DNA of 51,409 bases from Occallatibacter sp. Lineage in GTDB: Bacteria > Acidobacteriota > Terriglobia > Terriglobales > Acidobacteriaceae. Below the pieces are notes generated by a model that saw only the letters and a list, made by a program, of their open reading frames with translations, ran no database searches and was not told the origin of the DNA. The translations under genes were made by a program, and so were the position numbers. The DNA lies in assembly GCA_031296165.1 (NCBI GenBank), contig JARLGF010000037.1:1-51409 (forward strand). Reading direction: 5' to 3'. Positions 19,846-48,433 of this stretch are shown piece after piece; the stretch's first letter is position 1; each line of letters starts with the position of its first letter.

Positions 19846-19966
19846 CTAGAGCAGTTTCAGAAATTATGTTGAGTCTCCAAATGTGTTGCAAGGCAGTCGC
19901 TCACCGATGGTCGCGCCGGCTGAGCTTCATGGATTTGCCCCATGCCATTCCTGAATCTGCTATAGG
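19846..19966. repeat. interspersed repeat copies (core reads CCATTYCTGAAWCTGCTATAG on one strand)
   Basis: CTAGAGCAGTTTCAGAAATT at 19846-19865 (reverse orientation) and TCACCGATGGTCGCGCCGGCTGAGCTTCATGGATTTGCCCCATGCCATTCCTGAATCTGCTATAGG at 19901-19966. Confidence 0.65.
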
Positions 19967-21312: not shown

Positions 21313-21594
21313 GGCGCGGCAACCCTGCAACCCCTTTGACACCTCTCCGTAATTTGTGAACCCTCTCCAGGCGCCAGAAAAAGCAAACCAGGAAGAACAG
21401 GAATATTTCTGCTCTTTTGCAGTGAATTACCCTCCCAAGGCGCACAATCATTTCAGAGTGATTTTTTGTAACCCGGGGGATCGAATTCCGGAGTGAGCAG
21501 GGTGTTCAGTCCTGGTTCTTTGCCCCCTTTCCGGACCCGAAGGACATGCGCTGAAGGCCTACTCGACCCGGAGCAAAAGGTCCAAATACCGAAT

Positions 21595-21765
21595 TGCGGT
21601 ACGAAAATATGAAAAAGCACCAAAAAACTCCCGTAACTCCTTTGTTGTCGAATCTTTGCGTATAACTTCTTTATAATCTAATTCTTACGGCTATGGTCCC
21701 ATCTTATCTCTTTAAGAATGAATAACTTGATTAAATACATAGGGGGAGGGGGGGAGGGGTAATCA
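21595..21765 (-). repeat. ~175 bp interspersed repeat with G/C tract, copy A
   Basis: Reverse complement aligns along its length with 47534-47710; identical ACCCCTCCCCCCCTCCCCCT tract. Confidence 0.85.
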
Positions 21766-21872
21766 GATGGTACAGGGCCGAACTACCTGTACCGGGTGGC
21801 AGGGATGCCCGGCGACATTGGACCGGGCGCTTCGCTGACTGTTTATACCATTTCTGAAACTGCTATAGCGCG

Positions 21873-30393: not shown

Positions 30394-30555
30394 GAATATC
30401 CTCCTGCAGGAAACCATAAATAAACAGAAAGGAGAGTATCAGCCATGGTGCAACGATGCCGCAAGTCCCTGACGTAACCCGCTGTTCATGCCGTATCGGA
30501 TCGAAACGCATGTTGACACCGGAACGCATTCCATCGTGTAATTAAGTTGTTGCTT

Positions 30556-30620
30556 GTGGTGAAGGAGTTCACCCTTAACCGCTGTCCCTTCCGATAGGCC
30601 GGACAGATGATGACTCCTGA
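30556..30620 (+). promoter_or_regulatory. fluoride riboswitch aptamer (crcB motif)
   Basis: GGTGA-AGGAGT-TCACC stem-loop; loop AGGAGT complementary to 3' ACTCCT (pseudoknot); CTGTCC/GGACAG second stem; conserved TGATGACTCCT; lies upstream of crcB. Confidence 0.9.
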
Positions 30621-30783
30621 CAGGGGTTCCTGTCGGTGAGTCATGTCCCGGCGCGATCCCTAAGTACAAATCATGAAAGCGGGCGCCCTCGCTAACATTC
30701 GTGTGCTCCCGCAATCTTGCTGTAGCCACGCTTCATGAGTGCGGTGCAGCCTGTTTGTATAACCTGTACAAAGGAGGCCGGGA

Positions 30784-47443: not shown

Positions 47444-47533
47444 AATGCACCTCCGACGATTGCCGGCATGACATTTTTAGTGCCCGTTTCGCGGCCGTAA
47501 TGGATGCGCCGATCTGTGCGATCTATTGATTCT

Positions 47534-47710
47534 TTGATTACCCCTCCCCCCCTCCCCCTATGTTTTTAGTCAAGTTATCCAGTTTCAACGAGATACGATG
47601 GGGGTACCGCCGCAAAAATTAGATTCTAAAGGGGTTACATATCAAAAATTAGATAACAAAGGGGTTACGGGCTATTTTTGGCGTTTTTTTGAGGCTTTCG
47701 TACCGCATGT
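47534..47710 (+). repeat. ~175 bp interspersed repeat with C/G tract, copy B, containing two tandem 30-bp units
   Basis: Aligns with reverse complement of 21595-21765; internal CAAAAATTAGATTCTAAAGGGGTTAC (47613) and CAAAAATTAGATAACAAAGGGGTTAC (47643). Confidence 0.85.
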
Positions 47711-47776
47711 TGAGATTTCTATGCTTTTCATCGGGCTGAAATCTTCTTTCGGTGCGTTCTGTTCAGGTCCCGACGA

Positions 47777-47810
47777 CCCACTCATCGCGATAAAGCCGCG
47801 ATGAATGGGG
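47777..47810. repeat. hairpin repeat, variable-stem family, member 1
   Basis: CCCACTCATCGCG-ataaagc-CGCGATGAATGGGG. Confidence 0.75.
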
Positions 47811-47888
47811 TACAGTTTCGCCTTTTTGGGGATGGACAGGCGGATCGGTGAGTGGGCCAACTGCCCTTGGAAATTCGGCAAAAGACCC

Positions 47889-47951
47889 GGGGCTGAAGCC
47901 CCACGTTCATTCCAGCCTGTTTTCAGGGGCCTGAAGGCCCCTGCTCCCTCC
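47889..47951. repeat. double-hairpin REP-like element, copy 1
   Basis: GGGGCTGAAGCCCC ... GGGGCCTGAAGGCCCCTGCTCCCTCC. Confidence 0.75.
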
Positions 47952-48070
47952 AAAAATTCGATGCCTGGGTTCAAAAAGACACTATGGAACAATTGTGCGC
48001 CTGGGTGGGGTAATTATCTGCAAGTATCAGCGGTGCGGCAGACACGCTGCGCGTTTTTGGTTCGTGGTTT

Positions 48071-48116
48071 CCCACCCATTTCGCAAAAAAAAAAAACGCG
48101 AAATGGGTGGCGCACC
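48071..48116. repeat. hairpin repeat, variable-stem family, member 2
   Basis: CCACCCATTTCGC-A12C-GCGAAATGGGTGG, then CGCACC. Confidence 0.8.
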
Positions 48117-48400
48117 GCAGAGTGTGGGCGGGTCCTGGGAGGGCACCGGCGGCGAAAATCGGCGAAATGCGGCGCTGCAGAGGCAGCGGAGCGACGTTCT
48201 CCAGCGCGTCATTTCGGATGGATTGGCACTTTTTGGCGGATTTTGCCCGTAAAAACTGGCTGGATTTACGTGGAAACGTATGGTGGCTGGTTTTGGCCGT
48301 TGAGGATTCCTTCCGGATCGCCGGTGATTGGACCTGTAGAGATCAAAAGTTATATGCGACATCAGGGGGTGATCTCTGCCGATTGAGGTGTTGTTGCTTT

Positions 48401-48433
48401 CCCAGGTCTCAAAAAGCGAGACCTGGGGCACCC
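48401..48433. repeat. hairpin repeat, variable-stem family, member 3
   Basis: CCCAGGTCTC-aaaaagc-GAGACCTGGG, then GCACCC. Confidence 0.8.

Follow-up and report, generated by a model that had tools for sequence, protein, structure and literature searches.

Results

Two copies of a repeat in the window

The window, the whole 51,409-nucleotide stretch that was analysed, is one contig of an Occallatibacter sp. draft genome (G000; 2.78 Mb, 66% complete) and carries two copies of a repeat in opposite orientations, copy B (47535-47707) aligning with the reverse strand of copy A (21765-21595) at 79% identity over 173 bp (E 2e-36). A sequence-only reading of the window had reported this alignment, as well as two tandem units following a C-rich tract in copy B (47613-47638 and 47643-47671), and both are borne out. 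The same reading put the repeat at ~175 bp; the repeat is real, but this extent is too short, as conserved blocks of copy B reach ~48238 and a second block common to both copies (47939-48023 against 21502-21417, E 2e-11; delimited as B6 in Table 1) lies ~230-300 bp downstream of the 173-bp match.

Table 1. Parts of the two window copies. Percentages for B2, B3 and B4 are mean column conservation across 50 G000 copies; module matches are from 1.17 Mb of sampled sequence.
Feature	Position	Strand	Remarks
Copy B, left module a, short form GCGATCTATTGATTCTTTGATT	47518..47539	+	18 matches, all beside cores, 0 elsewhere
Copy B, homopyrimidine tract	47540..47559	+	Varies within the family; opposite strand G-rich
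Copy B, block B2	47570..47597	+	Site inverted relative to B3/B4; 92%
Copy B, block B3, first direct unit CAAAAATTAGATTCTAAAGGGGTTAC	47613..47638	+	97%
Copy B, block B4, second direct unit CAAAAATTAGATAACAAAGGGGTTACGGG	47643..47671	+	95%
Copy B, variable middle module mid1	47774..47865	+	17 matches, all beside cores
Copy B, variable middle module mid2	47887..47951	+	
Copy B, right block B6 ATTGTGCGCCTGGGTGGGGTAATTATCTGCAA	47968..48023	+	Also upstream of CRH genes in relatives
Copy B, module post1	48027..48073	+	
Copy B, module post2	48154..48238	+	
Copy A, left module b	21768..21804	-	Adjoins tract; 78% match, 37 bp
Copy A, homopyrimidine tract	21741..21760	-	
Copy A, block B2	21703..21730	-	
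Copy A, block B3	21661..21687	-	
Copy A, block B4	21630..21658	-	
Copy A, right block B6	21417..21473	-	

On the strand that carries the C-rich tract, the parts follow the order left module (a or b), homopyrimidine tract, B2, spacer, B3, B4, a variable middle region that holds modules, B6 and further modules. B3 and B4 are direct units of ~25 bp, set ~30 bp apart, and B2 is similar and inverted; the spacers are conserved at 78-79%, against the higher values of these three sites (Table 1). The conserved part is this array of ~25-bp sites, two direct and one inverted, plus the right block. Since the flanking modules occur in the sample nearly only beside cores, the element in G000 is a composite of several hundred bp.

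The tract itself had been described as invariant, from which selection on it was proposed, and its G-rich strand as able to form a G-quadruplex. It is instead among the most variable parts of the element: the exact 20-mer occurs in 4 of the 50 G000 copies, 29 forms were seen, and in G007, a genome of the same genus, the tract is A-rich, A8(G/T)A7GGG. This takes away the case for tract selection as well as for G-quadruplex conservation, and we rejected both.

Three other features of the window are recorded here. A fluoride riboswitch (RF01734, 36.3 bits) occupies 30549-30626 on the forward strand. A separate unit of ~120 bp with inverted ends (CTAGAGCAGTTTCAGAAAT / CTATAGCAGATTCAGGAAT) lies at 19846-19965; it is like a classical MITE and resembles left module a of some element copies, and one of its ends also stands alone at 21850-21868, beside copy A. 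A strong hairpin, CCCAGGTCTC-AAAAAGC-GAGACCTGGG followed by GCACCC, lies at 48401-48427, and similar hairpins occur beyond B6 in several G000 copies. Elsewhere, G020 loci L262, L270 and L277 hold another repeat of ~115 bp, bounded by CGGTTCTCCAATT / AATTGGAGAACCGCTATAG, which seems to lie nested within the element or next to it.

Dispersed copies in intergenic DNA

The repeat has many further copies in this genome and its relatives. BLAST of G000 gave 88 first-look candidates, and the 40 of these that were scored have 83-90% identity, the query itself apart; a profile of the B3-B4 unit detects at least 54 copies. At least 54 were found in G007, 53 in G072 and 45-50 in G020, with numbers ranging from 0 to more than 50 between species of the genus and zero in 39 genomes of other families. 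A 1.17-Mb sample of G000, enriched for contigs known to carry copies, provided 50 copies, the majority covering almost the full profile. Many copies lie within ~600 bp of contig ends (G000 C57, C52, C51, C45, C139, C87, C138, C89 and C67). The repeat is therefore likely to interrupt assembly, and the actual number of copies is probably higher.

All 50 sampled G000 copies are intergenic, though ~74% of the sequence is coding, and none is overlapped by a predicted ORF, in keeping with the earlier statement that the repeat holds no conserved ORF; genes were called by a simple script using codon usage rather than by dedicated gene-finding software. Possible overlap with a gene was seen for 1 of 30 copies in G007 and 1 of 26 in G020. 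The tract side mostly lies 40-170 bp past a gene end. Taken together, G000 and G007 copies number 31 in convergent and 6 in divergent intergenic regions (p 4e-5 against equal numbers), against a G000 background of 46 to 46; the bias is absent among G020 copies. The convergent bias and the intergenic placement fit elements tolerated where promoters stay unbroken. A role as promoter for neighbouring genes was rejected because divergent regions are avoided in G000 and G007, and a coding remnant in the core because predicted ORF overlap is absent and the tract varies in length.

A cysteine- and histidine-rich gene beside the element

In G003, G020 and G029, a small gene on the opposite strand begins next to the tract; we call it CRH (cysteine/histidine-rich). 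Its products, mostly 127-200 aa, have an N-terminal C-x-H-x7-C-x10-C-x2-H pattern, a second cluster further on (C-x5-C-x2-C-x5-C) and frequently an acidic tail, the spacing being zinc-motif-like. The first members scanned had no Pfam or NCBIfam match, even at E 1; among 13 members scanned, 6 weakly match DUF5763 and 2 a primase zinc finger, with best E values of 1.2e-4 and 7e-4, respectively. No recognisable nuclease or transposase domain was seen, and no known fold was recognised, the structural model (pLDDT 81) matching no PDB entry better than E 1.6.

A search of genome contigs with a single CRH protein returned three loci, and two of the relatives are public as 'Acidobacteriaceae bacterium' MAGs JOPF174 and JOPF013. 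Of 59 genomes of the genus, 28 carry CRH if weak matches are counted, and two further genera of the class gave weak matches. Among genomes sampled across the phylum, CRH occurs in 29 of ~44 from the family against 1 of ~350 elsewhere. A phage or plasmid origin was rejected, since CRH is absent from phage and plasmid collections, no IMG/VR relative was confirmed and the core 23-mer is absent there. A search of the available literature returned nothing on these repeats or on DUF5763.

The CRH upstream regions are built like the element, with C-rich tract, B2, B3, B4, variable part and B6. The B3-B4 profile, trained partly on CRH loci, detects 17 of 30 such regions. Homology among the multi-copy CRH units of G011 runs from B6 to approximately the stop codon, with no common non-coding 3' end. 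Three CRH loci adjoin glmS (read from its translated start) in three species, so that this location is old. In other genera of the family (L241-L252), CRH upstream regions show a hairpin-plus-T-run between the site array and a B6-like block, as well as a conserved GGGGCTTGACAAGATTTTT stretch ~300-350 nt upstream of CRH. G020 L034 carries a fragment of an IS1595-like zinc-ribbon transposase inside its CRH upstream region (about 585-1465).

Copies without an intact CRH gene were found in G007, G020, G072, G011, G017, G035, G076 and others. The CRH region closest to these gene-less copies is that of their own genome for 28 of 28 copies in G007 and 22 of 28 in G020; own-genome matching is absent in the smaller samples from G011, G017, G076 and G035, where two subfamilies are common to several species. 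All 50 G000 copies are closest to the G003 CRH region, G000 itself having yielded no CRH gene. Plausible decayed CRH starts stand beside two copies, L274 in G020 (E 2.6e-6) and L326 in G011 (E 0.003), the other matches of the search beside gene-less copies being no better than controls. These two remnants suggest that the gene-bearing units are the source of the gene-less copies.

At the genome level, where two or more extra gene-less copies occur, CRH is present in 12 of 15 cases, compared with 16 of 44 for the remaining genomes (Fisher 0.006, shared ancestry uncorrected); the plain co-occurrence of copies and CRH (3.6e-7) is inflated because the CRH loci themselves carry the profile, and is likewise uncorrected for ancestry. 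No CRH gene was found in G068 (100% complete, 5 copies) or, as stated, in the 66% complete G000, so CRH is unnecessary for copies to persist.

Presence and absence at orthologous sites, and candidate mobilisers

At G020 L253, a copy lies between flanks that stand 540 bp from each other. The matching flanks in G029 (87% identity) are separated by 28 bp, and the copy is likewise missing here from G030 and G035, giving three relatives in all. The inserted stretch reaches further than the tract and the right block, and divergence at the junctions is too great for a target duplication to be read. Gain in G020 is likelier than loss in the relatives. The L274 site of G020 is unoccupied in G029, and the L275 site is occupied in both. 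The earlier suggestion of a non-autonomous repeat is thus supported by orthologous-site presence/absence, by the dispersed intergenic copies and by a sharp left boundary in the sister species G007, where conservation upstream of the tract is zero across 29 copies.

Although short, non-coding and present in many dispersed copies, the element has no convincing terminal inverted repeats, the local score being 7.5 in G000 against 6.2 +- 1.2 for shuffled sequence and 4.5 against 4.4 in G007. No transposase was found in it, and its gene-bearing relative carries CRH and no known transposase. Y1-type transposases are present in all five genomes tested, with a core copy near only 1 of 12 Y1 loci; a Y1 partner was rejected on account of this lack of linkage.

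Folding of the element

The sequence-only reading had also considered a structured RNA. Consensus folding with RNAalifold on both strands of 50 G000 and 28 G007 sequences yielded energies between -1.3 and -7.0 kcal/mol for 150-200 nt, and the covariation terms were at most 0.5 in size in either set and on either strand. No structure emerged on either strand from 25 CRH sequences, whose alignment is too gappy to inform. Neither window copy matches an Rfam family. With no consensus fold on either strand and no Rfam match, a structured RNA was rejected.

Discussion

The element is probably a mobile-type repeat that derives from, or co-evolves with, CRH units. Somewhat less firmly, our best reading overall is of a high-copy non-autonomous DNA element whose ancestor was the upstream region of CRH. 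Direct support comes from the homology and common order of parts in the two kinds of unit, the high copy number, the intergenic placement, the subfamily match in two genomes, one clear presence/absence site and two CRH-start remnants. The element may be the detached upstream control region of CRH, and with it the passive partner in a mobile-element pair not described before. The gene-bearing units run from B6 through the variable part, B4 and B3 (direct) and B2 (inverted) to the low-complexity tract and the CRH start codon; the gene-less copies retain the part from tract to B6 and, on this reading, have spread to many intergenic sites.

It is plausible that the B2-B4 array is a protein-binding array, with CRH or a partner binding it and aiding its spread, and with most copies being tolerated passengers. 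The zinc-motif-like CRH protein is the natural candidate for the binder, although that CRH itself helps to move the element is a tentative proposal at best. More speculative by some distance is the idea that CRH is a new mobilising or copying protein, small, with two zinc motifs and without a known nuclease fold, that recognises its own upstream array and drives its spread, the gene-bearing and gene-less units then forming a new class of mobile element confined to one Acidobacteria family.

Foremost among the alternatives, though unlikely, is an ordinary miniature transposon moved in trans by the transposase of an unlinked insertion sequence, CRH having once been adjacent or been captured. The element is indeed discrete, intergenic, high-copy and ORF-free, and Y1-type enzymes are present in every genome tested; the scarcity of copies near Y1 loci, terminal inverted repeats that are weak in G000 and lacking in G007, and the co-variation of CRH region and gene-less copies in G007 and G020 all tell against it. 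A shade less probable is that the copies are host binding sites, with CRH or another regulator binding its own promoter and many dispersed sites, as a regulon or in chromosome organisation, and selection keeping them in place. This would account for the strong conservation of ~25-bp sites against variable spacers and for the same array before CRH genes across the genus, but such conservation is also expected if only intact copies spread, and the avoidance of divergent promoter regions in G000 and G007, the range of copy numbers within the genus and at least one site that is empty in relatives fit it poorly.

We consider it very improbable that the repeat is a short retro-copied element with its terminal tract as a tail analogous to that of eukaryotic SINEs. 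The tract does vary in length and composition, stands at one end and meets unrelated flanking sequence at a sharp junction; against this, it is also found before intact CRH genes, and the other end shows no progressive truncation in G000. Least credible of all is the structured RNA or G-quadruplex element first proposed, for which several G-runs on the G-rich strand in G000 and the inversion of B2 relative to B3/B4 might speak, and against which stand the absence of a consensus fold and of any Rfam match and an A/T-rich tract in G007.

If the derivation from CRH units is correct, an uncharacterised protein family present in most sampled genomes of a major family of soil bacteria would acquire a role that can be tested, that of partner to a high-copy repeat, and an origin would be found for repeats that reach dozens of copies per genome. 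The pair would moreover be REP/RAYT-like while built on a protein without a known transposase fold.

Comparison with known systems places the pair beside several described ones. On the protein side, the similarity to DUF5763 and zf-primase (Pfam) is weak and holds for some CRH proteins, the members first scanned falling outside it, and DUF5763 itself has no assigned function. Like prokaryotic MITEs (PMC10969869), the element is a few hundred bp long, non-coding, dispersed, intergenic and modular, with a variable interior; unlike them, it has its conserved part in an internal site array and a low-complexity tract at its end, and terminal inverted repeats are weak in G000 and absent in G007. In REP/RAYT systems (PMC2817692), REPs are short palindromes found on either side of a gene that encodes a Y1 transposase. 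Our element resembles these systems in combining many dispersed intergenic repeats with a low-copy cognate gene that adjoins the same sequence, in that repeat and gene change together, and in the orthologous place of the gene in several species. It differs from them in having a long site array that is not palindromic and lies only upstream of the gene, in lacking a stable consensus fold and in a cognate protein without a transposase domain. As the MITE label fails on inverted repeats and the REP/RAYT label on palindrome and Y1 gene, we call the element a MITE/REP-like repeat of a new variety.
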